A stretch of 64,000 bases of DNA from Chaetoceros tenuissimus (taxonomy: Eukaryota; Bacillariophyta; Thalassiosirophyceae; Chaetocerotales; Chaetocerotaceae): contig BLLK01000074.1 in assembly GCA_021927905.1 (NCBI GenBank), positions 310,001-374,000 on the forward strand, in the 5' to 3' direction. The notes below the pieces were generated by a model. The model made no database searches. It had not been told where the DNA came from and was given only the letters and a program-made list of their open reading frames with translations. Position 1 is the first letter of the stretch. Every line of letters begins with the position of its first letter. Made by a program: the position numbers and the translations under genes. Of the stretch, positions 2,926-62,539 are shown piece by piece.

Positions 2926-3471
2926 TACTCTAGCCAAAGTGGATGTTTCGTGAAAGGATGTAGTACAATAATGTATGATGTGTATGAAACATTAGTTGCT
3001 TGAAGTAGCAGCTAAGTTTGGAGAATAGAACTTTTTCGGCAGTGAAAAGTTGGTGGAAATCGTCAGAAGATTAATGTTATATTTTCCAGGATCATGAGGG
3101 CAATTTACCAGAATGGATAGAAAAATGTCGTCAATGTGTCGACAACACGGAAGAAAAAGAGAAAAAGTATTTTTTTAGACGACGTGAACCTACGAGTACC
3201 AACAACGTTGCACGTCAGCGCTTCTAATTCTAACAAGCAGGCAACTCGTGACTCGTCATTCTTACGTGTTCTTATACGTACGTCAGCACCACGGTACAAC
3301 TTCAACTCCAACACTCGAACGTCAGCAGAATGCATGCCTCCTGTTGACATCTCTAAATTTTGAAAATTTAATGCTGTTGGCGTTCAAGTTCAAGTCGTGC
3401 CTATTCCTACGATGTATTATTCTACCTATTATGAAAAAAGTGGTATTTGTGCATTAAATTTATAATCTTCA

Positions 3472-12084: not shown

Positions 12085-13272
12085 ATGAGTGATTCTAATG
12101 CAAATACACCAATCAAAATGTGGCCAGCCCTTGATTACGCAGACTTCGTAACTATCAAGCTTCAGCAAGATTTTGCTGATGGTTCCTATCGCAAAGAGAG
12201 TTTGCCAACCTTTGATGGAGAAGGTGGAAGCACTGGAAACGCGGAAGCCTTTCTCTATGTACGTGAGCGCTTTATCTCCGCAGCCAGCAACCGCAAGCTA
12301 AACTTTGACGACCTAGAAAAGTTCGAGAACTTTGAGGATGTGCTTAAAGGGGTAGCGCAACACTACTGGACTGATACTGTTTCCACCCATGCAGATGTAG
12401 TGGCAGCAGCAAATGCAGACAAGTTTCAAGTTGCAGTGAACCTTATGATGATTAGGTTCTGCGGAGGGCGTTCTGGAGGAGATGCTCTTCTAGAGTACCT
12501 GCGTTCTGATAAAGTGAGAAAGGAAAAGAGCAAGAGTGTTGCGGAGCATGTAGGGAGATTCTGTACTCTTGTAGGATATGCCAAGGAACTCTTGAGAATC
12601 GTAGCGCCAAGACCTGATGATAACCTTGAGAAGAAGCTTGTTTTTGATTCCTTCCCATATCAATGGAAGTTGAATTTCACCAATTCAGGAGCTGTGTATC
12701 ATGAAAAGTCTATCAATGAGATTAGTGAGTACATGGAACGCCAGAAGAGTACTGCAGATGCTGATACTTCCAAGAAACGTGCTCGTCATCAAGATCTGAA
12801 GAATCAGAAGTTCAAGCAGCGTAAGAAAGGAAACAGACGCGGTCAGACTGGTGGCTTCAGAAACCAGTGTACCAGACATGAGCCTCCACATAATAATCAT
12901 GAATGGGAGGACTGCATTCTTAATCCAAGAAGTGCCAATTTCCGTGGTGATACTGGTAGCAGAGGCCGAGGAGGCAGAGGCCGTGGCAATGGTTATGGCG
13001 GCAGAGGCCGTGGTAACGGTGGAGGAAGAGGTCATCATAACCACTCCAACCACAACAATAATGGAGGACAGTCCTATAACTCCGGTAACAATCAAGGACA
13101 TGGTCAGAATCAGAACTACAATTATCAAGGAACTCAAAATAATAACAATGCTAATACTCGTAGCAATCCAGAAAACGGTTCAAACCAGCAGGGTTCGAAT
13201 GGCAGTAATGAACAACACTTCCTCATGGACAATAACAACGTCTGGGGAGCACATCATGGTGCGTTCAATTAA
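12085..13272 (+). CDS. Retrotransposon Gag-like protein
   Basis: 395 aa encoded directly after the 5' LTR. The first ~230 residues resemble a capsid/nucleocapsid-type Gag. A basic linker and a Cys/His cluster (C-x2-H-x3-H-x2-H-x4-C, near residue 268) follow, then an RGG-rich tail with Asn/His/Gln-rich low complexity, consistent with nucleic-acid binding. It sits in the same reading frame as pol but is separated by its TAA stop and a 183-bp spacer that contains more stops. The last codons carry a possible splice donor (G|GTGCGT at 13259), discussed under findings. Confidence 0.9.
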   Translation: MSDSNANTPIKMWPALDYADFVTIKLQQDFADGSYRKESLPTFDGEGGSTGNAEAFLYVRERFISAASNRKLNFDDLEKFENFEDVLKGVAQHYWTDTVSTHADVVAAANADKFQVAVNLMMIRFCGGRSGGDALLEYLRSDKVRKEKSKSVAEHVGRFCTLVGYAKELLRIVAPRPDDNLEKKLVFDSFPYQWKLNFTNSGAVYHEKSINEISEYMERQKSTADADTSKKRARHQDLKNQKFKQRKKGNRRGQTGGFRNQCTRHEPPHNNHEWEDCILNPRSANFRGDTGSRGRGGRGRGNGYGGRGRGNGGGRGHHNHSNHNNNGGQSYNSGNNQGHGQNQNYNYQGTQNNNNANTRSNPENGSNQQGSNGSNEQHFLMDNNNVWGAHHGAFN

Positions 13273-13455: not shown

Positions 13456-16400
13456 ATGAATTCACCTTTGGAACTTGGAGAATGCTTCTGGGAACAAGAA
13501 GCAAAACAACAGTTCTGGAAGACTCCTCAAGAGGAGGAAGAAATCCTATGGGAAGAATACTTCGCAACTTCGATTCCAATGGATGTCTATGACTTTATTT
13601 CCTCTCCACCCGTTGAAGTGGAAGCTAGTCTCAGTGTGCAAGCCGACCAAATGAAAAAGGATCCATTAACTGCTCCAGTCTCATTATTGCAACCTCGCAC
13701 TATTAATGGGCATCGCGATACGAAGTTATGTAGAACTCTATTTGATTCCGGTGGAACTTGTGACATCATTCATCGACGTGCCTTACCGAAGAATTGTCCA
13801 GTTTATGATTTAACAGAGGCATCTCCGTCTATTGGCATAGGTGGCACTGTCTACTTCAAACAATATGTAATTCTAGAAAATAGCGTATTGCCCGAGTTTG
13901 GAAGAAAGCATAATATTGAAAAGATCTTTGCGCTTGTACATGATGGAGTGTGTCCTCATGATATCATCTTGGGTCAGAGAACTTTGGCAGCAATGGGCTT
14001 AGTACTGAACTACCAGGACCAAACAATGTCTTGGATGGACATCACCGTTTCCATGAAATCTCGTCGTCATTGGAATAACCGTACGAATGTGCAGCTAGCC
14101 TTCACTGAATATGGATATGATGATGAAGTGGAGGAGCAAGATGAATCTTTTATTCTGGAGTCTAAGTATGACAAAGTTTCAGGAAAAGAAGTAGCAGATG
14201 CTCAGCAGCACTTGTCAGAAGAACAGAGGAAAGATCTACATCGTGTACTGGACGAGTTCACTACGCTATTTGATGGTCAACTAAAAGTATATCCTGATAG
14301 CAAGGTTCATCTTCATCTCAAGCCTGATGCTCAGCCTCGTCAGAGTCGCCCTTACAAGGTTCCTTATGCACACGAAAAAGTTTTCAAGGAAGAACTTGAT
14401 CGTTTGGTGCAGCAAGGTGTTCTTTCTCCCGCTAACCGATCCATCTGGACTGCTCCAACTTTCATTATTCCAAAGAAGGACGGTCGGGTACGCTGGGTAA
14501 GCGATTTCCGGTATCTAAATAAGAATTTGCAACGAAAACAGTATGAGCTACCAAGAATTAAAGACATTCTCGAAAGGAGAAAAGGGTACAAATTTTTTAC
14601 CAAACTTGATATTTCGATGCAATATTACACCTTCGAGTTGGATGAGGAAAGCAAAAACTTATGCACAATCACTACTCCATTTGGTATGTATAAGTATAAC
14701 AGACTGCCAATGGGGATTCTGGAATCTCCAGACATTGCTCAAGAGATAATGGAAAATGTGCTACGTGATGAGGACTGTGAAATCTACATCGATGATATTG
14801 GTATCTTCTCCGATGATTGGAACGAACATGTTGGTAAGATTCAGCGTATACTTAAAAAGCTGCAGGATCACGGATTCACTATGAATCCACTCAAGTGTGA
14901 ATGGGCCGTACAAGAAACTGATTGGCTCGGACATTGGTTAACTCCAAGTGGACTAAAACCTTGGTCCAAGAAGATCAAACCGCTTTTGGCCATGCAACCT
15001 CCTAAAAATGTGAAGCAAGTACGCAGTTTCATAGGGGCTGTAAATTTTTATAAAGATATGTGGCAACGTAGAGCTCATTTGCAGAAGCCGCTAACAGATC
15101 TTTTAAAGACAAACAACTTCCACTGGGGCACAGAACAGCAGCAAGCGTTTGAGCAAATTAAAGCAACAATGGCGAAAGACGTTCTTCTTTTTTATCCTGA
15201 TCATAACCAACCTTTTTTTATCTATACCGACAGCTCGGACTATCAGTTGGGAGCTACACTGGCTCAGCATGATGCTGATGGAAATCTTCGACCAGTGGCC
15301 TTCTTTTCAAAGAAGCTTAATGCAGCTCAACGAAATTATCCTACTGGTGAAAAGGAATTTTTGTCGATCTTCGAGACATTAAAAACTTACCGTACTATGC
15401 TTCTAGGTGCTCAAATCCACATTTACACTGATCATAAAAATCTTACATACAAGAATATATCATCCCAACGAATGCTACGCTGGAGAATGTACATAGAGGA
15501 ATTCGGACCTCAATTACATTTTATTCCGGGCGAAGTCAATACTTGTGCAGATTATTTCTCACGTATGGAAGTTGACAGTAAGATTCTTGAGGAGAAGAGT
15601 AATGGTCCTAGTACAAAAAGAAACTTGGAAGAATCTTTCTTTCAGGATTTAATTTTTGATGATCTTCGGTTAGCAGAATGTTTTGCAAATTTACCTTTGT
15701 CTGAAATGTTTATTAATGTCGCTGAAAACGCTATTTTTCCTTTGGATTACAACAGAATAGCCTTAGCACAACAACAGGATATGCAATTAGCGCAACTAAG
15801 ACAGAGAAGCCCAGCTGATTACTCTTTACGACAGATGAATCCTCAAGTGCAACTCGTGATGTACAAAGATAGGATATTTGTACCAACGCAGTATTCCGTA
15901 CGTATCTTGCGGTGGTATCATAATGCTCTTAATCATTGCGGTGAAGAAAAATTGAAGAAAACCTTCAACGAAAACTTCTTTAGTCCCAGAGCTACAGAAA
16001 CCATTAAGGAGATTTGTTCTAAATGCGAAATATGTCAAGTAAACAAGACAGCTAGTGTTCAATATGGACATTTACCTCCAAGAACAGTTACTATGAATCC
16101 TTGGCATACGGTAGCAGTAGATCTAATTGGACCATGGAAATTCAAAGTGCAAGGAGTAACAGTGGAATTTCATGCCTTGACAATGGTGGATCAAGATACT
16201 AACCTTGTCGAAGCAGTACGTATTCAAAACAAACATGCAAATCATATAGCAACGTTGTTTGAAAATAATTGGCTTTCAAGGTATCCTAGACCGGTTAAGT
16301 GCATTCATGATCAAGGAGGTGAATTTACAGGATCAGAGTTTCAGGAGATGTTGAATAGGTTTAATATCAGACCAGCACAAATCACTACCAGGAATCCACA

Positions 16401-16875
16401 GGGTAATAGTATTTGTGAACGAATGCATCAAACAATGCTTCGTCAGCATCCACCACAGACAGTAGCAGAAGCAACTCAAGCAATAGATACTTTACTTGCC
16501 AATACTGTTTATGCATTGAGAACTGCGGTACATTCGACGATGAATGCATCTCCAGGAGCATTAGCGTTTCAAAGGAATATGATTTTGAATTTACCTTTCA
16601 TTGTTGATTTGAATAATCTCAGAGCTAGGAGGCAAGAAATAGTTGATAGAAGCAATCAAAGAGAAAATGATAACCGAATTGATTATAATTATCAAGTTGG
16701 AAATTGGGTATTGGTAATTGCAGATTCATATCGAACTACAAGCAAATTGGATATAAGATTTGAGGGTCCGTTTCAGATAACGCAAGTTCATGTTAATGGA
16801 AATGTTACCATTCGTCGCAGACCAGGCATTTTGGAAAGGGTGAACATCCGTAGAATAAGACCATATCGTAGATAG
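13456..16875 (+). CDS. Retrotransposon Pol polyprotein (PR-RT-RH-IN)
   Basis: 1139 aa from ATG 13456. The aspartic protease motif DSGGTCD is at residue 97. Reverse transcriptase follows with the catalytic YIDD box at ~444. RNase H has its TDSS motif at ~591. Integrase has an HHCC zinc finger starting near residue 822 and catalytic D889, D952 and E988, exactly the D-x35-E spacing of retroviral-type integrases. No chromodomain is evident at the C terminus. All catalytic residues are present with no stop or shift, so the element may be active. Start choice is uncertain because a spliced Gag-Pol fusion is possible. Confidence 0.95.
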   Translation: MNSPLELGECFWEQEAKQQFWKTPQEEEEILWEEYFATSIPMDVYDFISSPPVEVEASLSVQADQMKKDPLTAPVSLLQPRTINGHRDTKLCRTLFDSGGTCDIIHRRALPKNCPVYDLTEASPSIGIGGTVYFKQYVILENSVLPEFGRKHNIEKIFALVHDGVCPHDIILGQRTLAAMGLVLNYQDQTMSWMDITVSMKSRRHWNNRTNVQLAFTEYGYDDEVEEQDESFILESKYDKVSGKEVADAQQHLSEEQRKDLHRVLDEFTTLFDGQLKVYPDSKVHLHLKPDAQPRQSRPYKVPYAHEKVFKEELDRLVQQGVLSPANRSIWTAPTFIIPKKDGRVRWVSDFRYLNKNLQRKQYELPRIKDILERRKGYKFFTKLDISMQYYTFELDEESKNLCTITTPFGMYKYNRLPMGILESPDIAQEIMENVLRDEDCEIYIDDIGIFSDDWNEHVGKIQRILKKLQDHGFTMNPLKCEWAVQETDWLGHWLTPSGLKPWSKKIKPLLAMQPPKNVKQVRSFIGAVNFYKDMWQRRAHLQKPLTDLLKTNNFHWGTEQQQAFEQIKATMAKDVLLFYPDHNQPFFIYTDSSDYQLGATLAQHDADGNLRPVAFFSKKLNAAQRNYPTGEKEFLSIFETLKTYRTMLLGAQIHIYTDHKNLTYKNISSQRMLRWRMYIEEFGPQLHFIPGEVNTCADYFSRMEVDSKILEEKSNGPSTKRNLEESFFQDLIFDDLRLAECFANLPLSEMFINVAENAIFPLDYNRIALAQQQDMQLAQLRQRSPADYSLRQMNPQVQLVMYKDRIFVPTQYSVRILRWYHNALNHCGEEKLKKTFNENFFSPRATETIKEICSKCEICQVNKTASVQYGHLPPRTVTMNPWHTVAVDLIGPWKFKVQGVTVEFHALTMVDQDTNLVEAVRIQNKHANHIATLFENNWLSRYPRPVKCIHDQGGEFTGSEFQEMLNRFNIRPAQITTRNPQGNSICERMHQTMLRQHPPQTVAEATQAIDTLLANTVYALRTAVHSTMNASPGALAFQRNMILNLPFIVDLNNLRARRQEIVDRSNQRENDNRIDYNYQVGNWVLVIADSYRTTSKLDIRFEGPFQITQVHVNGNVTIRRRPGILERVNIRRIRPYRR

Positions 16876-44539: not shown

Positions 44540-45853
44540 TTAGTTACCGAGCAATGCATCTTCCTTATTGCTCTTCTTTCTCTTGAACAAACGTGAGAAA
44601 CTGAGTCTCTTTTTCATTTTCTTGGATTTCGACTTTTTGGAAGTTTTGTTGTCTCTTTCTTGAGCCATCGACATAGCCTTCTTCATTGCAATTCTACTCT
44701 TCAAGTACGAAATGTAAAACAAGAGCATGACAAATACAGTTGCAAATGCAGCAATGATCAAGGATGCCTTTAATGATCCATGGTATTTCATATGGATGAT
44801 TCCATTGGAACGAATTGGAGTAACTTTGATTCCTTGAATCCAGTTGCATGCATTCTCATTGATGTTATCATATCCCAAATGGTAATGAAGTTGAGTCTCA
44901 CATTTTCCTGCAACGTCATATGTATTGCCACATACACTGGATAGATTCGCTTCACCATCTTGATTGTAATAGTTGTCAGAAGATGATTCCTTACATGACA
45001 TACAATCTTTATTCACAATTGAAACGGATCCGTAAGGAATAGTATCTCCTCCTGTGATGGAATTGTAAGTGTACTGTCCTCCATCACTATCTGCAAAGGT
45101 AGTACATGTATCATCTGTAAACATTCCCATGTGAATTTCTCCTCCATTGCTTGCACAATATGGACCAATGTAGTACTGTACAGCTTCTTCTTCCAATTGG
45201 CGACGTCCCTCGCCATACGCATTACAAGCTCCATATTCTTGCAAGAACTGCATTCCGTACTCATCTCCAGCTTCCATATTAATACAATCATTTGCACTAG
45301 CATTGTAAAAGCATTGAAATTCACAAGACTGGTTACCATCATCTTGAGCTTCTTCTTCTCCATCTTCTTCTTGTGCTTCATTTTGTGCCTCCTCGAGATT
45401 TCTTTCATTGTTGCATCCACAGCTTTCAGCAAGAGCATCACACTTTTCCTCTGTAACTGCAATCTGAGTTTCAACATATGCTTGTACAAAGGTATCCATG
45501 TCAACTACGTAGTCACCATAAGAAGCAGAACATCCAACTGCTCTCTTGCCCACACAATACTTGGTAGGACAGAGACGAAACAGTACATATCTCTGGGTAT
45601 CAATACGAACCTCGTTGTCATCATCAGCATTCGTATTCCACTGTGCAACATGATGACAGCCAATGAATTTCATAGAGTAGTCTTCCATCCATGTAGTGTC
45701 ATAGCTCTGATTTTCTCCATCGCCGTTTTCAAGTTGACGAGCATGTTTCATCATGCGTAATCCTGTTGGAGAATTCAAAGGGATGCTTCCCATTGCTGCA
45801 CTGACTCCTTTTGCCGCAGCGAGAAATAGTGCAAGTGGTAATTTCAAATTCAT
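44540..45853 (-). CDS. Type I membrane protein with Cys-rich ectodomain and RXL-acidic motifs
   Basis: 437 aa, ATG 45853. A signal peptide ends near VSAAMG. The ectodomain (to ~370) has many Cys, including TKYCVGKRAVGC, ESCGC, CMSCKES and a KCETQLHYHLGYDN segment. Three sites read RQLENGDGE, RNLEEAQNE and RRQLEEE: each is an RXL followed by acidic residues, and one leads into an EEAQNEAQEEDGEEE-type acidic stretch. A membrane helix (ASLIIAAFATVFVMLLFYIS) and a Lys/Ser-rich cytosolic tail (~65 aa) follow. I do not know a named family. RXL is the cleavage signature of diatom silaffin-type precursors, so wall or silica-vesicle association is possible. Confidence 0.75.
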   Translation of the reverse strand: MNLKLPLALFLAAAKGVSAAMGSIPLNSPTGLRMMKHARQLENGDGENQSYDTTWMEDYSMKFIGCHHVAQWNTNADDDNEVRIDTQRYVLFRLCPTKYCVGKRAVGCSASYGDYVVDMDTFVQAYVETQIAVTEEKCDALAESCGCNNERNLEEAQNEAQEEDGEEEAQDDGNQSCEFQCFYNASANDCINMEAGDEYGMQFLQEYGACNAYGEGRRQLEEEAVQYYIGPYCASNGGEIHMGMFTDDTCTTFADSDGGQYTYNSITGGDTIPYGSVSIVNKDCMSCKESSSDNYYNQDGEANLSSVCGNTYDVAGKCETQLHYHLGYDNINENACNWIQGIKVTPIRSNGIIHMKYHGSLKASLIIAAFATVFVMLLFYISYLKSRIAMKKAMSMAQERDNKTSKKSKSKKMKKRLSFSRLFKRKKSNKEDALLGN

Positions 45854-47786: not shown

Positions 47787-49358
47787 TTAGCCAAGCCAAA
47801 TTGATACACTTGCTTGATCTCCTGCCACATATGGATTACTACTGTAATTGATGCTGTTGACCTTGATGTACAAAGTCTTGCCATTTTCGAAATTATGGTA
47901 AGTGTATGTTTGACCTCCGGACAAAGCTGATAACTTATGACTAGACATTGACTTTCCACTTTGCATATTCACCACCACTTTGTTGCGATCATGCGTTACA
48001 CCACTATTAACTTGCTTCGCACGGTTGAACCAAATAAACAAATGTGCCGAAGTTGAACGCACAGATAATACAAGCTTTCCACCACTGATTCTGCGGTTTT
48101 TGCGGACATCAGCTAAAGGCACAACTTTAAAAGTTTGAGTGGAGGTGGTAGCGCGAACAAGCTGGTTATCATTTGGGTACCAGTTGAAATACCACAATTT
48201 TGCACCATTGAAGCACATCTTGTTACCTTCCTTATCCCACACTGCCTTGTTTGACATATAATCAGTTCCATCGCCATAGCTGTTAGTTAGAGTTGCTGAA
48301 TGCTGGAAGCCCATGTTGTGTCCAACTTCGTGGACTTGCACAATAGGAAAGGCTTGAGAGTTGGCTTGAACCCATGTTGTTCTACCACCAATTTCTCCCC
48401 AGGCTTGTCCGCCTCTGAAATTGACACAATTATCATTAGGCAGCACGAACATGTAATGATCAATTGTTGCTGTCCCATAAGCTGCCATGGCCTTACTATG
48501 ATATTTCGCGTAGTTCGAAAGTTTCACGTAGTTATAGCTACAGACATTAGCTGGGGGTGGAATAGTTAAGACACCATGTACAGCTCCTTTCACTTGTGAG
48601 GGGTTGATTTTCAATTGATTTCCTGAGCAGTTTTTGTAGATATTTCTCTATTGGAAATATATTTAGAGAATCCGCGTTAGAGAATGACTGTTTGCTGGGA
48701 AGAAAACATAAGTATTCTTTGGCTTTACTTACCAAGTTGCGGTTGTTCTTTCCAAATGTATCAACTGCAATTTGATATGCACTTTGAGGAACTCCAACTG
48801 CTATGATCAAGAGTCTCATGGTTCCTTTGCTTGGAAGTGAAACTAGTTTTCTTCTTCTATCGTTTCCAGTAAATGTAATAGTAATTTGAGAAACTGTGCC
48901 TTCGTTGAAATGGACCTCGTCGTGCAAGTTTACAAGCTCCTCTGGAAAACGAATTTGAACATCGCCATTGTCAAGATTTACCTCTTGAAAGAAGGAAGCA
49001 GTCTCTCCAACCAAACTGTACATAGTACCACCAAACGTATCTTCTTCATAATCTTCCTCACAGAGAAGAGATTGTGGGAGTTCGTCTTGTTCAGGTAGTG
49101 AAACACCATCATTCTCGAATACAACACATTCAATAAATTTTGAATTTTCTGTTTCTATATAGCGTGGAAGTTAGCTTTTATCATGTCAAGCTCTGCTGCA
49201 TATACATATATATGACATATTTAGTTCTTACCAAGTGCTCTTGTAGTGTCGCTCTCTATCTTCTTGTTTGGTGAGGCTCGAAGTCCAGCACCTTCTGTCT
49301 TGAGAAGATACGTCAAAGAGATCAGTGCAGATAAAGTAGAAAGAATAGATAGCTTCAT
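47787..49358 (-). CDS. Gametolysin-like (M11) metallopeptidase, secreted (3 exons)
   Basis: Exons 49358-49232, 49154-48733 and 48647-47787 join in frame (introns of 77 and 85 nt, GTAAG donors) to 469 aa. A signal peptide and an acidic pro-like region lead to a beta-rich segment, then the peptidase domain with zinc site HEVGHNMGFQHS (HExxHxxGxxH, metzincin type) and a possible Met-turn in DYMSNKAVW. A ~100-residue beta-rich C-terminal domain follows. M11 enzymes (gametolysins) degrade algal extracellular matrix; classic gametolysin has QExxH, so the HExxH form here is the standard metzincin one. Targets could be wall proteins of the neighbouring loci, which is inference. Confidence 0.87.
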
Positions 49359-50304: not shown

Positions 50305-51327
50305 ATGATTGCGTTTAAGAGACAGAAATTTCACCTGGTTTTGCTTCTCTTCTCGTCACTTTTCCAGTCTTCTAGCTCTTTTCTGCAAGCTATATCTTCT
50401 AATAGAAAGATTATATCTTTGAACAAACCGTTGACAGCACAAGTTAGTGACGATGATTTCGATCCTCTATTATCTCCGCATGCGTATCCAAATGGAACTG
50501 GGTCACCAGCAGCAAAGAAAGAAGAAAGTACAGATGATGATTGGTCACCTATGAAAATGAGTTCTGTGAAAGATGACTTTCAGGGAGCAGAAGCTGAAGA
50601 GTATGGTGTTTTGAAAGCTTCTTTTTCTTCAAAGTGGTCGGCAGTTAGTGGTACTTCATCAGCACACTCGGATGTACAAGAAATAGTAGAAGGCAAAGAA
50701 GAACCGGCTGAGTTTTTTGATCCATTACTTTCACCTCATGCATATCCGAAAGGAACAAAAGCCGGACCGATTGCTTCGTCTGAAAAGCAGTCAAAGAAAC
50801 AACAAGTAGGAATCCTTTTGATCGACCATGGTTCCAAAAGAGCTACATCTAATGCTCGTCTAGATACTTTATGTGAAATGTATCAAAAGTCACCGAGTAC
50901 TCCATCTCACTATACTATCAAAGCGGCACATATGGAAATCGCGGAACCATCTATCAAGCAACAAATTGAAGCTTTTTATCAAGAAGGTGTCACAAAGATA
51001 GTTTGTCATCCCTATTTCTTGAGTCCTGGTAGACATGTGCTGGAAGATATTCCAGAGCTGATTGAAGAAGCAGAAATATACATGAAGGAGAAATATGGAA
51101 AAAATAATGACACTTACAAAATGGAAGTAATCATGACTGAAGCTGTTGGAAGTAAACTTGATCTAATGATTGGTCTAATTGGACAAATGGTTACTGAAGT
51201 ATTGGGTGAAGAAGACAAAGATCAATATTACGAAAGTGGCTTTGTTCCCAAAGACAAATCGGATCCGATGGCACTTGGTGGATTTTTTGGTGAAGTTCAG
51301 CGAATGTTGGACGAGCAACTTGACTAA
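50305..51327 (+). CDS. Sirohydrochlorin ferrochelatase (SirB/CbiX-type), plastid
   Basis: 340 aa, single exon. A signal peptide ending SSSFLQ (S-F junction) indicates plastid import. Residues ~45-165 are low complexity and carry two copies of the motif FDPLLSPHAYP(N/K)GT. The catalytic domain starts near 170 with VGILLIDHGSKR and includes KAAHMEIAEPSI and VCHPYFLSPGRHVLEDIPEL, the diagnostic His-containing motifs of class II chelatases SirB/CbiX. It inserts Fe2+ into sirohydrochlorin to form siroheme for plastid nitrite and sulfite reductases. Domain length (~130 aa) fits plant SirB. Confidence 0.9.
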   Translation: MIAFKRQKFHLVLLLFSSLFQSSSSFLQAISSNRKIISLNKPLTAQVSDDDFDPLLSPHAYPNGTGSPAAKKEESTDDDWSPMKMSSVKDDFQGAEAEEYGVLKASFSSKWSAVSGTSSAHSDVQEIVEGKEEPAEFFDPLLSPHAYPKGTKAGPIASSEKQSKKQQVGILLIDHGSKRATSNARLDTLCEMYQKSPSTPSHYTIKAAHMEIAEPSIKQQIEAFYQEGVTKIVCHPYFLSPGRHVLEDIPELIEEAEIYMKEKYGKNNDTYKMEVIMTEAVGSKLDLMIGLIGQMVTEVLGEEDKDQYYESGFVPKDKSDPMALGGFFGEVQRMLDEQLD

Positions 51328-51459: not shown

Positions 51460-54400
51460 TTATAACATGAGAACATACATACCAATTGCGATAACTACTG
51501 TAACGATTCTTGAACCGGTGGAAGATATTGTTGCATCTGATGAGGATCCAACAGCTCTTACGAATGTTCCATCAGCATCGTCGTAACCATAATCATCGTC
51601 CTCCACGTAGTATTCATCAGTCGTAGGCTCCACTGGAGCATCGTTCGATGTCTCACTTGTATCTCCACCTGAACCAGGATTCAATGGATCTAGGCTGCCT
51701 CCAGATCCATTGCCTCCTTCGACTGGATCACTTTCAACATCTCCGCCAGAGCTTCCCTTTCCTTTAGAGCCGCCCTTGGAAGAACCTTTACTGCTGCCCT
51801 TTGACTTGCCCTTACCCTTCGATACCGGACAATCTACCTTGCCCTTACCCTTGCCCTTGCTGCCTTTCGTTGGTCCAGTTGATCCCTTGGTTGGTCCAGT
51901 TGACTTTCCTTTTGTGGGTCCCTGAAGGTATCTGCCCTCATACTTGCCCTTACCCTTGGTAGGTGATGAAGATCCTTTTCCTTTGCCTTTTCCTTTCGAG
52001 CTTGGAGCAGGAGTAGGTGGACAACTTGGTGGAGCAACAGCGCCCTCTAGATTATATGCAGTTCCAGCTGATACAGAGCCTGAGAAAGAGAGATATGAAA
52101 TGAGCTTTCGACATCAAAGTGAAACTAGCACACATAAAAATTGCCTGAACTTACATTCAAAAGAAGACGAACCGCCACCGCCTTTACCCTTGCCCTTGCC
52201 CTTGCCCTTGCCCTTGCCCTTGCTATTACCCTTGCTCTTAGATGACTTGAGGTTTCTAACATATCCCTTGCTATTACCCTTGGACTTGGATGACTTGGAT
52301 GACTTGGATGACTTGGATGACTTGCCTCCTTTTCCTTTACCACCCTTGGAGTCGGATCCTTTGCCTTTGCCTCCCTTGGAATCAGATCCTTTTCCTTTAC
52401 CTCCCTTTCCTTTACCTTTGCCTTTGCAAGATTTACCTCCCTTGCCTTTGCCACCCTTGCCCTTTCCTGACTCAACACACAATTCTTCTCCTGACACAGT
52501 CATGGACACTTCGTATTGCACGTTTACTTCTCCTGGGACAACTCCGTTTTCATCAGCCTGTGGGCGCTCGCAGAAATTAAGTGACTTGGTATAGGTATGT
52601 TTGGTACATACTTCAGGTTCAATACTACCCGCAGGTAGAGACGGAACTAGATCTGTACTAAATGTAATATCTTGTCCATCTAGCATCAACTCAGTATTGT
52701 CTTGGTCAAGCACGATAGGACCATCCATTCGATTACAGATTTCAAAGGTATACTCAGCCTCGACATTGCATACCTCTTCAATGTCAGGAGGTTGAAGTAC
52801 ATTGTCATCAAAAAGTCCAATATTAGTCACAGAACCAATTTCCTCAAAAGGGATAAACACACCGGCAACACCTGGATCAGGGTTCGACAGACAGTCATAG
52901 CCTGTTAGGTCGAACTCGGATATAGAGGCATCATTTGGAAGATTCGGTTGGTAATAAGCAAATCCACTTTTAATGGTACAGCTCAGGGAGGTCTAAGAAA
53001 TGTGGAAAAAGATGGGAAGAAAGAAAGTTCGGGAAAAAGTGTAGGGGAAAAAGAGTTAGTAAAAGTGAATAAAGTGCAATGAAGGAAATAAATGTATGGA
53101 GTAAGAATGTCAGTACTTACATCTACTACTCCATCGGCACATGTGCCTTGGACTGGACTTGGACCTCCATTGATAGGTAGAACGCTATCATCAGTTTCAA
53201 TTGGCGCTACAATAGGTTCAGTAGTTGCTTTAGGTGACTTCGTTGCTTTAGGTGACTTCGTTTTCTTTGATGTGGAAGAAAAGTCTGCTCCATTGTCGGT
53301 AGGTGTATCTAGTGGAGGCTTACCAGTCGTGGTATCGGTATCGGTGGCAGTACCAGTATTACTACTAGTATCAACAATTGCTGCATTGTTTTTTCTAGCT
53401 TTTGGAGCTTTTGGTGTCTTTGGACTTTTTCCAGGGGAAGAATTGTCAGCTTCTCCGTCTCCATCTACAATTGCACCCAAATTATCAAGTCCATCGCCTC
53501 CACCATAACCATAACCATCACCATCATCATCAAGGTCTAAATCAGGAACTGGTGCAGGTACTGGAGCTGGTACTGGAGCAGGAACTGGCACTGGTACAGG
53601 AGCAGGTACTGGTGCTGGTACAGGAGCTGGTGCAGTAGGTTCTGAGTCCGATACTGGTGATGCAACAGGTGCGTCAGAATCCTCATCTGGAACGTTGCCA
53701 TCAGAAGCACAAGATGCACAGCACTTCACAGCTACATCATCAACGCAATTATTTGAAATGCGAGTTGCTGCATTATTAGCAGTTAGCCATGAACAGTTTT
53801 TGTCAGCGGTGCCAGTTGAGGATCCAGAGTTACTGAATAAGAAAGAAACATCATCTACACAGCCATCAGCATCTGTACCAGAGCTTCCCTTTCCTTTAGA
53901 GCCGCCCTTGGAAGAACCTTTACTGCTGCCCTTTGACTTGCCCTTACCCTTCGATACCGGACAATCTACCTTGCCCTTACCCTTGCCCTTGCTGCCTTTC
54001 GTTGGTCCAGTTGATCCCTTGGTTGGTCCAGTTGACTTTCCTTTTGTGGGTCCCTGAAGGTATCTGCCCTCATACTTGCCCTTACCCTTGGTAGGTGATG
54101 AAGATCCTTTTCCTTTGCCTTTTCCTTTCGAGCTTGGAGCAGGAGTAGGTGGACAACTTGGTGGAGCAACAGCGCCCTCTAGATTATATGCAGTTCCAGC
54201 TGATACAGAGCCTGAGAAAGAGAGATATGAAATGAGCTTTCGACATCAAAGTGAAACTAGCACACATAAAAATTGCCTGAACTTACATTCAAAAGAAGAC
54301 GAACCGCCACCGCCTTTACCCTTGCCCTTGCCCTTGCCCTTGCCCTTGCTATTACCCTTGCTCTTAGATGACTTGAGGTTTCTAACATATCCCTTGCTAT

Positions 54401-55510
54401 TACCCTTGGACTTGGATGACTTGGATGACTTGGATGACTTGCCTCCTTTTCCTTTACCACCCTTGGAGTCGGATCCTTTGCCTTTGCCTCCCTTGGAATC
54501 AGATCCTTTTCCTTTACCTCCCTTTCCTTTACCTTTGCCTTTGCAAGATTTACCTCCCTTGCCTTTGCCACCCTTGCCCTTTCCTGACTCAACACACAAT
54601 TCTTCTCCTGACACAGTCATGGACACTTCGTATTGCACGTTTACTTCTCCTGGGACAACTCCGTTTTCATCAGCCTGTGGGCGCTCGCAGAAATTAAGTG
54701 ACTTGGTATAGGTATGTTTGGTACATACTTCAGGTTCAATACTACCCGCAGGTAGAGACGGAACTAGATCTGTACTAAATGTAATATCTTGTCCATCTAG
54801 CATCAACTCAGTATTGTCTTGGTCAAGCACGATAGGACCATCCATTCGATTACAGATTTCAAAGGTATACTCAGCCTCGACATTGCATACCTCTTCAATG
54901 TCAGGAGGTTGAAGTACATTGTCATCAAAAAGTCCAATATTAGTCACAGAACCAATTTCCTCAAAAGGGATAAACACACCGGCAACACCTGGATCAGGGT
55001 TCGACAGACAGTCATAGCCTGTTAGGTCGAACTCGGATATAGAGGCATCATTTGGAAGATTCGGTTGGTAATAAGCAAATCCACTTTTAATGGTACAGCT
55101 CAGGGAGGTCTAAGAAATGTGGAAAAAGATGGGAAGAAAGAAAGTTCGGGAAAAAGTGTAGGGGAAAAAGAGTTAGTAAAAGTGAATAAAGTGCAATGAA
55201 GGAAATAAATGTATGGAGTAAGAATGTCAGTACTTACATCTACTACTCCATCGGCACATGTGCCTTGGACTGGACTTGGACCTCCATTGATGGGCACAAC
55301 TGCATCGTCTCCGGCTGGCACATCATCATCGGCGGTAATAGCATCATCGTTTGAGTAATACTGATCATCTTCTACAATTGCTTCATTTACTGGGTCTTTT
55401 ACTTTTTCAGGAGCACCCTTTGATGATTTAGAACTCTTTAAAGTTCTTCCAGATACTTCTGCTGCCTGTTTGAGCAACAGAAGTAGGATAGATTGTTTCA
55501 AGTACTTCAT
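51460..55510 (-). CDS. Silaffin-like modular secreted protein 1 (5 exons, ~1214 aa)
   Basis: Exons 55510-55238, 55109-54287, 54211-53121, 52992-52155 and 52079-51460 join in frame; introns are 128, 75, 128 and 75 nt. Order: signal peptide (MKYLKQSILLLLL); SKSSK and acidic segment; Cys domain 1 with YTFEICNRMDG; GKGKG/SKSSK-rich tail; C-S-V-S-A segment with GPTKGSTGPTKG; a small Cys module (NCSWL...CCASC); a PAPVPAP linker; then the same domain and Lys-rich tail again; an acidic Tyr/Asp stretch; and a C-terminal hydrophobic tail (IVTVVIAIGMYVLML) that could be a GPI signal or anchor. RXL sites (RNL, RYL) and a KSSKSSKSSKSSK array occur. It is probably a cell-wall/silica-matrix protein, by inference. 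Confidence 0.8.
51746..53174. repeat. Internal gene duplication, copy A (1429 bp)
   Basis: Near-identical to 53878-55291, including both introns. Copy A is 15 bp longer through differences in the runs encoding KGKGKG and SKSSK. The borders lie inside coding exons (ccagagcttccc at one end, ggacctccattgat at the other), keeping the reading frame. Confidence 0.95.
53878..55291. repeat. Internal gene duplication, copy B (1414 bp)
   Basis: Matches 51746-53174 with an offset of 2132 bp at the left border falling to 2117 bp at the right. About 700 bp of unique coding sequence (Cys module, PAPVPAP linker and Thr/Lys segment) separates the copies. Confidence 0.95.
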
Positions 55511-56653
55511 TATTTGAAGCAAAAGTGTTTTTATGAGCACTTCTCGAGAAGGAGAATGTGGAACCCATGTTGACACGAGAAGCCTTTTGATCGGATAAAA
55601 GGATTCCCGATTTCTTCTTCTATTCAAATTTGTAGAGTGCCAATGTTTACTTTGGAATTTAGAGTGGAAGGAACTGGAAGCTTTCACATATCTTGTGTCA
55701 ATACTGCGACGAGATTTTCTTCTTTGGAAATTTGACCAGTAGAGAGCTTCTCATTTTTCTAAATACCGGGAAATTACTTAAGCCCCTTGAAGTAATCATG
55801 ATCCCGTAAAACTAAACGACTCGATTCGTGAGCTCTCTCCAATTTGTGAGTACAAATCAAGAATCAAGAACCAAGAACCATCTCTCAGTTCTTTACTTAG
55901 AAGACCACTAACATCCGATGCAAACCGAGTAGACACTGTTGAGTTTGACTTGGAAAAGGTGCGCCATGATGGTGACACATGAGAACAGTGGAGACTAAAT
56001 ATTTAGATTCTGCAACAACTTTGTTACAGAGTAGCAGTAGAGGTTGCTTCAACAGCTTCCTCGCTGATGAATTCTATTTGTCAAAGAAAGTTCTATTCAA
56101 TTGTTTGTTGAATTCATTCATAAATGAAATACTTGAAGTGATGACTTGATAGCGTGACAGCTCATGGATAGATGCATGAAATATGTCAATTGATTGTTTC
56201 TCTTTTGCTCGTATGTCACAAATTGCATTTGATTCTCATCATGTGCAGATTAAATGTGTTCTGCGTGTATCCCACACTTCAATAGATTGCATACACATAT
56301 CATTCCCAAAATTATTACCAGTAGTATGCTCGTCGTCTACTCTAGAGGATGCTGAACGTTGATGTTTACCAAATGATGTGAGAAGTCAGTCCATTTAGAA
56401 AATGTAGAGAATGCTTCATCCTATTCGTGCATGGAAACAATTCCAATCAAATGAAAACATCTTTTCAGAATGATTTCAGAAGCAAAATTACGAATGATTC
56501 GTGCTTGAGAAGTGTACTTATACTCAAGAAGTGACAGTAGTGTAGTATTATTATCTTATCGTTACCTACTTTCATTCCTGTTAGAATATTTATATATTTT
56601 ATATAAAGACATGTATTTGATTGCCCATTCCGTTCGGGATGAATACCTCTTCA
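55511..56653. other. Intergenic, 1.14 kb, between the two large genes
   Basis: No gene is supported. It holds the promoter of the first large gene, including the 15-bp motif at 55774-55788, and the 3' flank of the second. Confidence 0.45.
55774..55788. promoter_or_regulatory. Shared upstream motif ttacttaagcccctt (site 1)
   Basis: The same 15 bases occur at 62871-62885. Site 1 lies 264 bp upstream of ATG 55510, site 2 332 bp upstream of ATG 62539, in the same orientation relative to each gene. A shared regulator or a remnant of gene duplication could explain it. Confidence 0.45.
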
Positions 56654-59600
56654 TTAAACCATGATGAAAGCATACAAAAGGATGAGAGCAATTGAGTTTC
56701 TGATTGACTTCTTATCAGTTCCTGAAAGCGCATTGCGATCAGATGTAGATGATGTCATATGGATAGATGAAATGGATGCATTAGCTCCGTATGTGAAGGA
56801 GCTACGTCTGTAAGTGTAACCTTTGAATTGAAAAACGATGTTAGAAAAAGCATAAATATTATAATCATAAAAGAAGCAAAACATGTAGAATACTTACATT
56901 GGGATACATATATTGCTGACTGGTTGCCATGGATTGCAGATCCTCCGCTTGAACTGCCAGAGCTTTTGGTAGATTTTGAACCAGAACCATGTGAAATAAT
57001 AGCAGCAGCTTCAGTTCCCTTTGCCTTTGATGATTTGCTTGACTTGCGAATAGCATAGCTTGTATCGGAGCCCTTGGAAATTATCACAGATGCTTCAGTT
57101 CCCTTCGCCTTTGATAATTTGGTTGATTTGCGAATCGCATAGCTTGTATCGGAGCCCTTGGAAATGATCACAGATGCTTCAGTTCCCTTCGCCTTTGATG
57201 ATTTGGTTGAATTCTTGGAGTCCTTGGAATTCTTGGAGTCCTTCGAATTCTTGGACTTATTTCCGTTCTTTGACTTGTTGTCCTTTTTCTTGATCACTAC
57301 GCCTAACATTCTAGTATCTGAACCCTTGGAGATAACAACAGCTTCAGTTCCCTTTGCATTAGATGACTTGCTGGATTTGCGAACTGCAGATACAGTTTCA
57401 GTTCCCTTTGCATTAGATGACTTGCTGGATTTGCGAACTGCAGATACAGTTTCAGTGCCCTTTGCATTGGATGACTTGCTGGATTTGCGAATTGCAGAGG
57501 TTGTATCAGAGCCCTTGGAGATAACAACAGCTTCAGTTCCCTTTGCATTAGATGACTTGCTGGATTTGCGAACTGCAGATACAGTTTCAGTGCCCTTTGC
57601 ATTGGATGACTTGCTGGATTTGCGAATTGCAGAGGTTGTATCAGAGCCCTTGGAGATAACAACAGCTTCAGTTCCCTTTGCATTGGATGACTTGCTGGAT
57701 TTGCGAATTGCAGAAGTTGTATCAGAGCCCTTGGAGATAACAACAGCTTCAGTTCCCTTTGCATTAGATGACTTGCTGGATTTGCGAACTGCAGATACAG
57801 TTTCTGTGCCCTTTGCATTAGATGATTTACTCGATTTGCGTACAGCAGATACAGTTTCTGTGCCCTTTGCATTAGATGACTTGCTGGATTTGCGAACTGC
57901 AGAGGTTGTATCAGAGCCCTTGGAGATAACAACAGCTTCTGTGCCCTTTGCCTTTGAAGATTTACTAGACTTTCTAGAACTATCCTTATCACCAACAATA
58001 GGAGAATCATCAATGTACGTGTCCATTTGTCCTTGAACATTAATCGAAGTGGAAATATTTTTCCATGAAGTTTTCGCTTCTTCATCGCAGAAATCAATGC
58101 TCTCCTCAACTTTCACAGTTCTACATTCCTCAGGAGCAAATGGTGCATCGAAAAGACCAACTGGAGTGACATCATTTCTATTGACCTTGATTTGTGTAGA
58201 GATCTCATTAAGGAATAGATGATAGGTATCATCGAGATTGCAAATTTTGAAAGTGTAGATTGCAGTACTTTCGCCTATACAGTCGTCACTATTCTCAGGT
58301 AACACAACGAAAGGAGTTTCTTTTCCATTTTCAATAGAATTTAGGCAATCATAGCCATCTAATGGACCGCCCTTAATCCTACACTCAATCTTTACCTGAA
58401 AAAGGGGTGAGACCAACATATAATCAGCATTCAGCTCGAAAGGAAAAAAGAAAACTTACCATAGTATCAGATGAATAACAATACAGTGGATTATCAAAAT
58501 TCCATTCAAATTCTTCGACAATCGCAGAACCTTCAGAACCAACATCTGAGCTATCTTCAATACTGCTTTCAGTACCAGTAGAAGAGTCAGCACTTCCAGC
58601 ATCTGGCTGTTGCCCAGCATCACTACTAGAACCTTGTTTCGATGACTTCGCAGCCTTTGCAGATTTGGATTTTCCTGAATGCTCAGAACCAGCCTGTTGA
58701 CCCTCATTATCGTCACTTCCAATGCTACTCTCGGTAGAAGAGTCAGCACTTCCAGTATCTGGCTGTTGTCCAGCATCACTTCCAGTACTTGTCTCCGATT
58801 CACTATCAGTAGACGATCCAGCACTTCCAGTATCTGGCTGTTGTCCAGCATCTCCGTCAGAGCTATGCTTTGATGACTTGGAAGCCTTTGTAGATTTGGA
58901 ATTTTCATCAGTACTATCAGCAGAGGTAGAAGTAGAAGTAGAAGTAGAAGTAGAAGTAGAAGTAGAACCATCTGGCACTGTTCCTTCATCACTATCGCTA
59001 TCAGTAGAGGTAGAAGTAGAGTCGCCTGATCCGCTATCAGTAGAGGTAGAAGTAGAAGCAGAGCCATCTGGTACTGTTCCTTCATCACTATCGCTATCAG
59101 TAGAGTCAGTACTATCGCTATCAGTAGAGGTAGAAGTAGAAGTAGAAGTAGAACTATCTGGCACTGTTCCTTCATCACTATCGCTATCAGTAGAGGTAGA
59201 AGTAGAAGTAGAGGTAGAAGTAGAGTCGCCTGATCTACTTGAGCTTCCATCATCTGGCACTGTTCCTTCATCTCCGTTAGAGCTATGCTTCGATGATTTG
59301 GAAGCCTTCGTAGATTTGGATTTTCCAGAATGATCAGATCCAGTCTGCTGACCTTCATCATCAGTACTATCAGTAGAGGTAGAAGTAGAAGTAGAGTCGC
59401 TTGATCCACTTGAGCTTCCGTCATCTGGCACTGTTCCTTCATCACTATCGCTATCAGTAGAGGTAGAAGTAGAGTCGCCTGATCCGCTATCAGTAGAGGT
59501 AGAAGTAGAAGTAGAGCCATCTGGTACCGTTCCTTCATCACTATCGCTATCAGTAGAGGTAGAAGTAGAGTCGCCTGATCCACTTGAGCTTCCATCATCT

Positions 59601-62539
59601 GGCACTGTTCCTTCATCTCCGTCAGAGCTATGCTTCGATGATTTGAAAGCCTTCGTAGATTTGGATTTTCCAGAATGATCAGATCCAGTCTGCTGACCTT
59701 CATCATCAGTACTATCAGTAGAGGTAGAAGTAGAAGTAGAGCCACTTGATCCACTTGAGCTTCCGTCATCTGGCACTGTTCCTTCATCACTATCGCTATC
59801 AGTAGAGGTAGAAGTAGAGTCGCCTGATCCGCTATCAGTAGAGGTAGAAGTAGAAGCAGAGCCATCTGGTACTGTTCCTTCATCACTATCGCTATCAGTA
59901 GAGGTAGAAGTAGAGTCGCCTGATCCACTTGAGCTTCCATCATCTGGCACTGTTCCTTCATCTCCGTCAGAGCTATGCTTCGATGATTTGGAAGCCTTCG
60001 TAGATTTGGATTTTCCAGAATGATCAGATCCAGTCTGCTGACCTTCATCATCAGTACTATCAGTAGAGGTAGAAGTAGAAGTAGAAGTAGAGTCGCTTGA
60101 TCCACTTGAGCTTCCGTCATCTGGCACTGTTCCTTCATCACTATCGCTATCAGTAGAGGTAGAAGTAGAGTCGCCTGATCCACTTGAGCTTCCATCATCT
60201 GGCACTGTTCCTTCATCTCCGTCAGAGCTATGCTTCGATGATTTGGAAGCCTTCGTAGATTTGGATTTTCCAGAATGATCAGATCCAGTCTGCTGACCTT
60301 CATCATCAGTACTATCAGTAGAGGTAGAAGTAGAGTCGCTTGATCCACTTGAGCTTCCGTCATCTGGCACTGTTCCTTCATCACTATCGCTATCAGTAGA
60401 GGTAGAAGTAGAGTCGCCTGATCCACTTGAGCTTCCATCATCTGGCACTGTTCCTTCATCTCCGTCAGAGCTATGCTTCGATGATTTGGAAGCCTTCGTA
60501 GATTTGGATTTTCCAGAATGATCAGATCCAGTCTGCTGACCTTCATCATCAGTACTATCAGTAGAGGTAGAAGTAGAGTCGCTTGATCCACTTGAGCTTC
60601 CGTCATCTGGCACTGTTCCTTCATCACTATCGCTATCAGTAGAGGTAGAAGTAGAGTCGCCTGATCCACTTGAGCTTCCATCATCTGGCACTGTTCCTTC
60701 ATCTCCGTCAGAGCTATGCTTCGATGATTTGGAAGCCTTCGTAGATTTGGATTTTCCAGAATGATCAGATCCAGTCTGCTGACCTTCATCATCAGTACTA
60801 TCAGTAGAGGTAGAAGTAGAAGTAGAGTCGCTTGATCCACTTGAGCTTCCGTCATCTGGCACTGTTCCTTCATCACTATCGCTATCAGTAGAGGTAGAAG
60901 TAGAGTCGCCTGATCCGCTATCAGTAGAGGTAGAAGTAGAAGCAGAGCCATCTGGTACTGTTCCTTCATCACTATCGCTATCAGTAGAGTCAGCACTATC
61001 GCTATCAGTAGAAGTAGAAGTAGAGGTAGAAGTGGAACCATCTGGTACCGTCCCTTCATCACTATCGGTACCAGAGTCTTCCGAGCTACTAGAGCCTTCA
61101 TCACTTGAAACTATTCCCTCATCGGAAGAAGTACCAGAGTCTTCCGAGCTACTAGAGCCTTCATCACTTGAAACTATTCCCTCATCGGAAGAAGTACCAG
61201 AGTCTTCAGAGCTAGATGCCGATCCAGAGCTACCGGAAACTGGCTGTTGTCCAGCATTACTATCAGAGCTCTGCTTTGTTGACTTGGAAGACTTTGTTGA
61301 TTTGGATTGTTTACTAGAGCTTTCATCACCTGAAACTATTCCCTCATCAGAAGAAGTACCAGAGTCTCTAGAGCTAGATGCCGATCCCGAGGTACTAGAG
61401 CTTTCATCACCTGAAACTATTCCCTCATTAGACTGACTTCGATCAACTTGATAAGTGCTTCGCCTAAATGTATAACCTATTCTTGCTGTTAGATTCCAAT
61501 GTAAAATAAAATAGTTTTCAGTGACTGTGGCTTACATTTGCATGTTCTCAAGTAACGCATAACATGATCATTTTCTCCCACTTCCAAATTTCTTTGTCCT
61601 TTGCCCACATAATAACCCTTCGCATTTGAGTACTTGCTTGACTTTCCTCGTTTGGATGCCTTATCAGATCTATTTCCTTTTCCTTTGCCACCCTTGGATG
61701 ATTTATCAGATCTATTTCCTTTTCCTTTGTCACCCTTGGAGGATTTTCCAGAGCGACTTGTTTTTGAAGATTTATCACTCTTTCCACCTTTCCCACTCTT
61801 GGACTTGTTACTTTTACCACCTTTTCCTCTTGAACCTTTGCCTTTTTGAGATTTATTGCTCTTGTTTCCTGGTTTCACAGGTTGCACCAACGGTTCATCT
61901 TCTTCAAAGACTCCTTGCATCTTTAAAGAAAGGTTGACCTCGCGGGAACTGAAACTACCTGCTCCCTCAATGTCACATAGGTTCCACGTTTCCATCTTGT
62001 CGAAGACTTTACATTCTTCTGGCTCGATTGGAGCATCAAAGAAGAAAGATGGTGTGATGTCCTTCTTATCAAACCGAACATGTGCCTTCATTTCATCTAA
62101 AATGAAAGAAGAATCGTCTAAGTTACACATCTCAAAGGTAATCTTGACAGTGACTGGCTCAATAGAGCAACTGCCATCTTCCTTGAGTTCAGCAACAGCA
62201 AATGGTTTCTCTTCGCCGTTTTCCATGCTATTGATACAGCTTTTACCATCCAAAGGACCACCTACAATAACACATGAAATACGTGTCTATTACATTTAAA
62301 ATATGGGTTAGTTTCGGAATAAATCTAGTAATGAAGACTCATAGCAAGATATCTATTCCCGTCGCTCAGTATACCGAACTACTCGTGTCAACCTTCACAT
62401 CACATTTTCCCTTCAAATTATTTCAAACTCTACTCACTTCTGTGTTACAATCACATGTATTTGGATTTGGGAAGTCCCATTGTGCGTATGCACTCAGGGA
62501 CTGATATAGAAGTAATGATATCGCTTTGAAAGATCTCAT
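56654..62539 (-). CDS. Silaffin-like modular secreted protein 2 (5 exons, ~1844 aa)
   Basis: Exons 62539-62438, 62286-61536, 61476-58460, 58395-56898 and 56820-56654 join in frame (introns 151, 59, 64 and 77 nt). Exon 1 encodes a signal peptide and CDCNTE. Exon 2 has Cys domain 1 (GGPLDGKSC, FEMCNLDD) and a Lys/Gly/Ser-rich tail ending QRNLEVGE. Exon 3 is a ~1000-residue Ser/Thr/Asp repeat region with interspersed SKSTKASKSSKHSS blocks. Exon 4 has Cys domain 2 (GGPLDGYDC, FKICNLDD) and ~18- and 27-residue repeats of KSSKSSNAKGTE type. Exon 5 ends in a hydrophobic tail (IALILLYAFIMV), possibly GPI. The alternation of acidic/phosphorylatable and Lys-rich parts suits silica-associated proteins; this role is inferred. 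Confidence 0.8.
57300..57970. repeat. In-frame coding repeats, 54- and 81-bp units
   Basis: The tract encodes repeated KSSKSSNAKGTE followed by either TVSAVR (18 aa) or AVVISKGSDTTSAIR (27 aa) in mixed order, about ten units. Related but more diverged KAKGTEASVIISKGSD units lie at 56990-57200. All unit lengths are multiples of three. Confidence 0.9.
58900..61080. repeat. In-frame coding repeats in the Ser/Thr/Asp region
   Basis: Short units (STSTSTDS, SDEGTVPDDGSSSGS) are nested in a larger unit of about 80 codons that also contains GQQTGSDHSGKSKSTKASKS. The larger unit recurs with a 240-bp period near 60289, 60529 and 60775 and with more variable spacing to 59340. The opposite and shifted frames stay open only because of this repetition. 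Confidence 0.9.

Follow-up and report, generated by a model that had tools for sequence, protein, structure and literature searches.

Silaffin-like proteins of diatoms are described in PMC5501833 by a signal peptide and KXXK motifs, in which X is serine or glycine, with a pentalysine cluster (five nonconsecutive lysines in 12 to 14 aa) and RXL as further features. PMC4557024 links KXXK to both silaffins and cingulins and RXL to these two and also to frustulins and silacidins; PMC9650480 presents pentalysine clusters as silaffin targeting peptides. Silicanin-1 is reported as a type I transmembrane protein of 426 aa with an RXL site and an NQ-rich domain containing 18 cysteines (PMC5525289).

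We analyzed a stretch of 64,000 nucleotides of the Chaetoceros tenuissimus genome (the window; contig C58:310001-374000), where two predicted minus-strand genes, A and B, resemble several of these systems. With the T. pseudonana and C. fusiformis silaffins and SFLP (KXXK) proteins they share KXXK, pentalysine, and RXL motifs, a high serine content, and a putative secretory signal; Cys domains with an internal Lys-rich loop and a GPI-like C terminus set them apart from the descriptions of those proteins. Gene B has the long acidic Ser/Asp-rich repeat region of silacidins, but this region is Thr-rich, has no RXL inside it, and is part of a larger basic/acidic chain. Membership among the silacidins was rejected because the acidic Ser-rich repeats are not bounded by RXL, which in the final model of gene B occurs only at residues 266, 278, and 1652. 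Cingulins were rejected since neither protein has Trp- or Tyr-rich regions alternating with KXXK (Trp, 0.1-0.2%; Tyr, 1.1-2.5%); Tyr is found, by eye, only in short patches such as YYVEDDDYGYDD in gene A. The silicalemma-associated proteins (SAPs) are like A and B in having a Ser-rich luminal part, RXL, and a membrane link. However, a conserved cytosolic segment follows the transmembrane helix of SAPs, whereas A and B end in a hydrophobic stretch, and SAP membership was rejected because hydropathy rose above threshold only at their extreme C termini. Silicanin/SiMat7-like proteins are also secreted and contain cysteines and RXL; A and B were rejected as members since they have neither the 18-Cys luminal domain nor a type I transmembrane helix with a cytosolic tail. 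Among the entries listed by literature searches on GPI and diatom silica, Chaetoceros and silaffins, and Cys-rich or loop-type silaffins, none described this architecture.

Architecture of the two predicted proteins

The first-pass annotation had joined about ten minus-strand frames through GT-AG introns into two genes, each with two Cys domains, Lys/Ser/Gly-rich segments, and a hydrophobic C terminus. Our sequence-based models, with 10 exons in total, gave the same coding lengths, and the Cys domains and Lys-rich segments were located in both genes (Table 1). The hydrophobic C terminus was confirmed as well, the hydropathy peak lying at the extreme C terminus in A and B.

Table 1. Features of genes A and B and of a neighboring gene (window coordinates)
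Feature	Position	Strand	Remarks
Gene A, CDS span	51460..55510	(-)	3645 nt, 1214 aa, one terminal stop, four GT-AG introns
Gene A, exons	55510-55238, 55109-54287, 54211-53121, 52992-52155, 52079-51460	(-)	
Gene A, N terminus, residues 1-38	55397..55510	(-)	Putative signal peptide (by eye), then RTL and pentalysine cluster (KSSKSSKGAPEKVK)
Gene A, Cys domain 1, exon-2 part	54606..55109	(-)	
Gene A, Lys/Gly/Ser loop insertion 1	54288..54605	(-)	106 aa, 30% Lys; coordinates from exon ends
Gene A, linker mini-domain	53703..53879	(-)	Cys-rich (CVDD...CSWL...C...KCCASCAS)
Gene A, Cys domain 2, exon-4 part	52489..52992	(-)	
Gene A, Lys/Gly/Ser loop insertion 2	52156..52488	(-)	111 aa, 31% Lys; coordinates from exon ends
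Gene A, hydrophobic extreme C terminus and stop	51460..51507	(-)	IVTVVIAIGMYVLML; from hydropathy; putatively GPI-signal-like
Gene B, CDS span	56654..62539	(-)	5535 nt, 1844 aa, one terminal stop, four GT-AG introns
Gene B, exons	62539-62438, 62286-61536, 61476-58460, 58395-56898, 56820-56654	(-)	
Gene B, putative signal peptide, residues 1-19	62483..62539	(-)	AYA/Q; from translation, by eye
Gene B, Cys domain 1, exon-2 part	61912..62286	(-)	
Gene B, Lys/Ser/Gly loop insertion 1	61537..61911	(-)	125 aa, 22% Lys, with RNL and RYL; coordinates from exon ends
Gene B, exon 3	58460..61476	(-)	Module 1 terminal motif CYTFRRS, then ~980 aa of acidic Ser/Thr/Asp repeats with KSKSTKASKSSK clusters inside
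Gene B, Cys domain 2, exon-4 part	58030..58395	(-)	
Gene B, Lys/Ser loop insertion 2	56899..58029	(-)	377 aa, 17% Lys, 26% Ser; coordinates from exon ends
Gene B, last exon	56654..56820	(-)	Remainder of terminal motif CYTYRRSS and putative GPI-like C terminus (SIALILLYAFIMV)
Silicanin/SiMat7-like gene	44540..45853	(-)	Signal peptide, RXL, 321-aa luminal region with 18 Cys, transmembrane helix, 53-aa basic tail

With a 15-residue hydropathy window and a threshold of 1.6, the only residues to pass were the last 18 of gene A and the last 17 of gene B. The N terminus of neither protein reached the threshold, whereas the two C termini and the signal peptide of a neighboring gene did. By eye, the signal peptide of gene B is good (AYA/Q) and that of gene A is short. 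Both tails run from small residues through a short spacer into a hydrophobic stretch that ends with the protein. A hydrophobic C-terminal end preceded by small residues and a short spacer is the layout of GPI signals. The resemblance of the A and B termini to such signals suggests membrane tethering, an addition to the earlier annotation. To our knowledge, a GPI-like C terminus is not a feature of classical silaffins.

Lys-rich segments within a Cys-domain family

Judged from their sequences, the polycationic "tails" of A and B are insertions inside the Cys domain, bounded by its last Cys. In the family to which this domain is assigned below, the last strand (...xxG) leads through a short loop to a terminal motif (CYAYDFLRVF, CYLFRRTTMEY, or CYMHWRSS). 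We examined this loop in 18 paralogue domains, a set that leaves out L026. It was 8 to 24 residues long in 14 of the 15 domains measured by script; the exception, a value of 2 for L032, was a false cut (9 by eye), and the three unparsed domains, L035, L039, and L018, gave 9, 9, and 9 to 11 by eye. Thus, loops before the last Cys in the 18 paralogue domains span about 8 to 24 residues and are not Lys-rich repeats, whereas those of the window modules span 106, 111, 125, and 377 residues with 17 to 31% Lys (four of four modules).

The modules of gene B end in CYTFRRST and CYTYRRSS, for which CYLFRR, CYMHWRSS, and CYAYDF are the family counterparts. The gene A ending, CSVSAGTAY, is unlike the family beyond the Cys, so its loops are placed by the position of the last Cys and the common intron phase instead: the Cys codon is split by a phase-1 intron in all four modules (in the first module of B, only with the later of two acceptors). 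If the last Cys is disulfide-bonded to the body of the domain, as we infer, the polycation would be held as a closed loop. The first-pass view that both genes are built on one repeated module was right and can be sharpened, the module being, by this comparison, a Cys domain of a wider family with the Lys-rich stretch in its last loop.

The family was traced in searches of the C. tenuissimus genome itself (41,027,912 bases, 68 contigs). Exon-sized queries did not reveal it, and the gene A domain found three places only, all in the window. The second domain of gene B did reveal it, with 13 places at E ≤ 10, two of them gene B itself and the other 11 on C44 (8), C38 (2), and C27 (1); the best of these had an E value of 7.4e-4. 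A reverse query with a C44 domain gave 25 matches at E ≤ 0.01, adding members on C54 (two), C21, C16, and C14, and the window domain was the weakest of them (E = 0.0067). The matches of the gene B domain are reciprocal and singly weak (E = 7e-4 and 0.0067). Profile-to-profile comparison (hhalign) of three window sequences, the identical other copy in gene A being left out, with 17 of the 24 nonwindow matches (near copies L031, L033, L036, L038, and L044 and partial L047 and L048 left out) gave a probability of 97.3% and an E value of 2.2e-11, with a Cys pattern common to both. The same pattern is found in members from all seven contigs (C44, C38, C27, C54, C21, C16, and C14). The window domain is thus assigned to a wider family in this genome, mostly without a Lys-rich part among the members read; for gene A, whose own query matched only in the window, the link comes from the profile comparison and from the resemblance between genes A and B.

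A phase-0 intron lies four residues upstream of the second Cys of the domain in all four modules. It has consensus borders and the same place in three paralogues, L026 (C27), L018 (C38), and L053 (C14), where it comes after a signal-peptide-like exon. It is missing from seven family ORFs with both Cys in one open frame (L016, L017, L020, L021, L049, L051, and L052).

The company kept by the domain varies. C44 carries three genes with tandem Cys domains, two ORFs there running into an LRR-like start; Pro/Ser-rich linkers occur in another C44 ORF and in the C21 member; the C38 member has a beta-propeller-like stretch; the C27 member adjoins a sulfatase-like ORF; and the C16 member combines a Lys/Ser-rich stretch with an RNL site (all named by reading). 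The minimal form, on C14, consists of a signal peptide and one Cys domain without an insertion. A Pfam scan of four family ORFs gave no match above the cutoff. The Cys-rich linker mini-domain of gene A had one weak other match in the genome (E = 8.9e-4, first 48 residues). Two nearly identical 568-aa ORFs with a Cys domain and a propeller-like stretch, L018 and L019 (C38:502635 and 495020), lie 7.6 kb apart and are another recent duplication within the family. In bacterial/archaeal and viral collections, 157 and 27 stretches, respectively, matched a pattern and none was confirmed by tblastn; A and B therefore show no sign of prokaryotic or viral origin in those collections.

Silaffin-like motifs and charge

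K[SG][SG]K occurs 25 times in gene A (shuffle mean, 1.32) and 31 times in the 1847-aa model of gene B (shuffle mean, 1.78), and 0 of 5000 shuffles reached either count. There are 11 merged pentalysine stretches in A and 11 in B (14-aa window; B as the 1847-aa model). RXL sites, which the first-pass annotation had linked to silaffin-type processing, number five in gene A (shuffle mean, 0.53; 0 of 5000 reach 5), two of them copies by duplication, and three in gene B (shuffle mean, 0.57; 84 of 5000 reach 3; computed on the 1847-aa model, the count being kept in the final one). Since the shuffles ignore repeat structure, they show only that composition alone leaves the motifs unexplained. Charge alternates along the chains, with a pI of 4.1 to 4.2 for Cys domains and linkers and 10.3 to 10.7 for Lys segments; the acidic region of gene B carries a net charge of -153 over 986 aa. 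The term "silaffin-like" accordingly stands as far as the published motifs go, while the accompanying role of A and B in silica is put forward here as a probable one.

The gene A leader, in which RXL precedes a KSSK run, recurs elsewhere. Genome-wide, the pattern KS[ST]KS[ST]K, searched with one codon set, had 22 matches versus 1 for a reversed control. Frames read around all 22 comprised 13 ORFs, one ORF in L064, and genes A and B, and in 4 of these 16 the K-S-S/T-K run stood directly after RXL or after one further Lys: gene A, a CBM_14 ORF on C34, and two related ORFs on C59. L064 (C34, locus 2904-3632) combines a signal-peptide-like start and an RXL-KSSK-type run with a CBM_14 chitin-binding domain (E = 4.1e-7); L079 (C59), where one of the two ORFs has a propeller-like stretch, has the same kind of start and run. 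The runs after RXL in L064 and L079 read KSSKSSK or KKSTKSTK. Elsewhere the pattern stood on a subtilase-like ORF, on Pro/Ser repeats, or near the C terminus; the frames of L070, L071, and L075 are short and perhaps do not belong to genes. The recurrence of the leader on unrelated domains suggests a possible portable silica-targeting tag. L077 (C33:166660-171800) holds two inverted, very similar silaffin-like ORFs, each with a signal peptide and three RXL, including RHL and RQL sites, with 17 and 24 KXXK and with KGKGGKGKGGKS repeats like those in the loops of gene A; these are perhaps the plain silaffins of C. tenuissimus.

A silicanin/SiMat7-like neighbor

The gene at 44540-45853 lies 5.6 kb from the A/B locus and encodes 437 aa, with an RQL site and 13.7% N+Q in the luminal region (limits set by the analyst). 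Its three RXL were reached in 248 of 5000 shuffles. In its signal peptide, RXL, 18 luminal Cys, and type I transmembrane helix it agrees with the description of Silicanin-1, and by architecture it is silicanin/SiMat7-like. Matches to it were found at 14 places in the genome, itself included, representing about 12 genes. In an alignment with 8 of the 13 other places, two (L056 and L057) kept all 18 Cys and six, possible fragments among them, kept fewer; across all nine aligned sequences, 9 of the 18 Cys columns are invariant.

KSSK-type and SiMat7-like genes were close to each other more often than expected at random. Three of 13 KSSK-type clusters fell within 20 kb of such a gene (random mean, 0.15; 3 reached in 6 of 20000 placements); at 10 kb there were 2 (reached in 40 of 20000) and at 50 kb 3 (109 of 20000), the contigs concerned being C34, C19, and C58. 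The idea came after the data had been seen and the random placement ignored contig ends, and we treat the proximity as a lead.

Between this gene and gene A, the frame at 47787-48614 (-) encodes a gametolysin-type peptidase M11 (Pfam E = 8e-9). An overlapping frame at 48547-49170 (-), without a Pfam match, may be its first exon.

Possible roles of A and B

The reading we favor, with modest confidence, is that A and B are paralogous genes for large secreted, possibly membrane-tethered silaffin-like matrix proteins. By its sequence, each protein is a chain of two modules with acidic stretches between them. After entry into the secretory pathway, the Lys clusters would be modified with methyl or polyamine groups and the serines phosphorylated, and cleavage at RXL would expose KSSKSSK in gene A. 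The disulfide-closed Cys domain would hold each polycation as a loop and serve for anchoring or cross-linking; silica would be nucleated and patterned by the mixed polycation/polyanion phase; and the hydrophobic C termini would tether the proteins through GPI to the membrane of the silica deposition vesicle or of the cell until processing. This reading draws on the published motifs, the charge alternation, the loop insertion in four of four modules, the family homology, the nearby SiMat7-like gene, the KSSK clustering, and the codon bias described below. If true, silica-directing polycations can be mounted as loops on a preexisting folded secreted domain, and need not occur only as free disordered peptides.

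Several observations weigh against it. Lys/Ser-rich repeats are of low complexity and could arise without a role in silica, and the Cys domain is also found in proteins without a Lys-rich part. The signal peptides are below the hydropathy threshold, the RXL sites are partly duplicated in A and in modest excess in B, and nonsynonymous differences outnumber synonymous ones in exon 3 of gene B (220 versus 172). All paralogues compared come from one genome.

A and B could instead be general cell-surface or extracellular-matrix glycoproteins (GPI-anchored, mucin-like, forming an adhesive or protective coat) that have no part in silica, with the Cys domain binding a ligand or polysaccharide and the repeats acting as spacers that are Lys/Ser-rich by chance. 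The settings in which the Cys domain otherwise occurs (tandem arrays with an LRR-like start, a propeller-like stretch, Pro/Ser linkers, and a sulfatase-like ORF beside it) would agree with this, as would the GPI-like tails. However, dense KXXK, pentalysine, and RXL together are the published signature of biosilica proteins, and Si-responsive proteins of T. pseudonana are also reported to contain Pro-Thr/Ser repeats (PMC5501833). We consider this alternative somewhat unlikely.

A more specific form of the silaffin-like reading concerns the setae. In C. tenuissimus, seta silica is reported to be always outside the cell membrane, which the authors regard as strong, though incomplete, evidence that setae lack a silica deposition vesicle, and they speculate that a secreted organic template is made at the membrane tip of the seta (PMC8324917). 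A tethered silaffin deserves attention for this reason, and a membrane-linked silaffin-like protein would fit such a site, the placement of A and B in setae, valves, or silica being conjectural. That they are GPI-tethered silaffin-like scaffolds for extracellular silica, within the template machinery of the seta tip, strikes us as unlikely, and both this and the broader silaffin-like reading are weakened by the subthreshold signal peptides and by an intron that is not family-wide. If it is true, the locus offers concrete candidates for silica templating linked to the membrane, and does so in a species whose silica has been imaged outside the cell membrane.

Double module of gene A and gene models

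Over 1441 aligned bp, the two modules of gene A have identical introns and differ only in repeat number, by 6 nt at one place and 9 nt at another, and in 4 mismatches at the extreme edge of the alignment. Three causes could account for this near-identity: the duplication is very recent, gene conversion has taken place, or the consensus is an artefact. The heterozygosity of C. tenuissimus NIES-3715 is given as 1.56% (PMC8613185), and near-identity that extends through introns in such a strain could mean that assembly or polishing made the double module in part, from one genomic module or from two divergent ones homogenized in the consensus. We judge this quite improbable, since the linker of ~650 bp between the modules occurs once in the gene, the module flanks differ, two in-frame length differences are retained, and gene B has the two-module architecture without identity between its modules.

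Intron phases are 0,1,0,1 in both genes, and all eight introns of the final models, 59 to 151 nt long, are GT-AG. The second intron of gene B has two in-frame acceptors 9 nt apart, giving models of 5535 nt (1844 aa) and 5544 nt (1847 aa). The earlier acceptor (5544 nt) was dropped; the later one is preferred because it restores the Cys codon (T/GT) and the motif CYTFRRS, which matches CYTYRRS of the second module of B.

Mismatches between repeat copies of gene B at codon positions 1, 2, and 3 numbered 26, 11, and 118 in exon 4 (98 synonymous and 38 nonsynonymous codon differences) and 169, 118, and 263 in exon 3 (172 and 220, respectively); pairs of copies are not independent, and the counts are given without a P value. 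In the annotated frame, position 3 is clearly favored in exon 4 and less strongly so in exon 3. That the exons are spliced otherwise, as several short genes or as noncoding low-complexity DNA, is barely credible given this bias, the common phases of the two genes, and the phase-0 intron position shared with three paralogues, even with other frames of the repeats open over long runs.

In 2-kb bins, the mean G+C content of the window was 39.2%. A CbiX-type chelatase gene at 50305-51327 (+) is convergent with gene A and ends 132 bases from its stop. Farther away, a frame at 13456-16875 (+) resembles a protease followed by reverse transcriptase, RNase H, and integrase and is preceded by a gag-like frame at 12085-13272 (+); by reading, not by search, the pair is an LTR retrotransposon.
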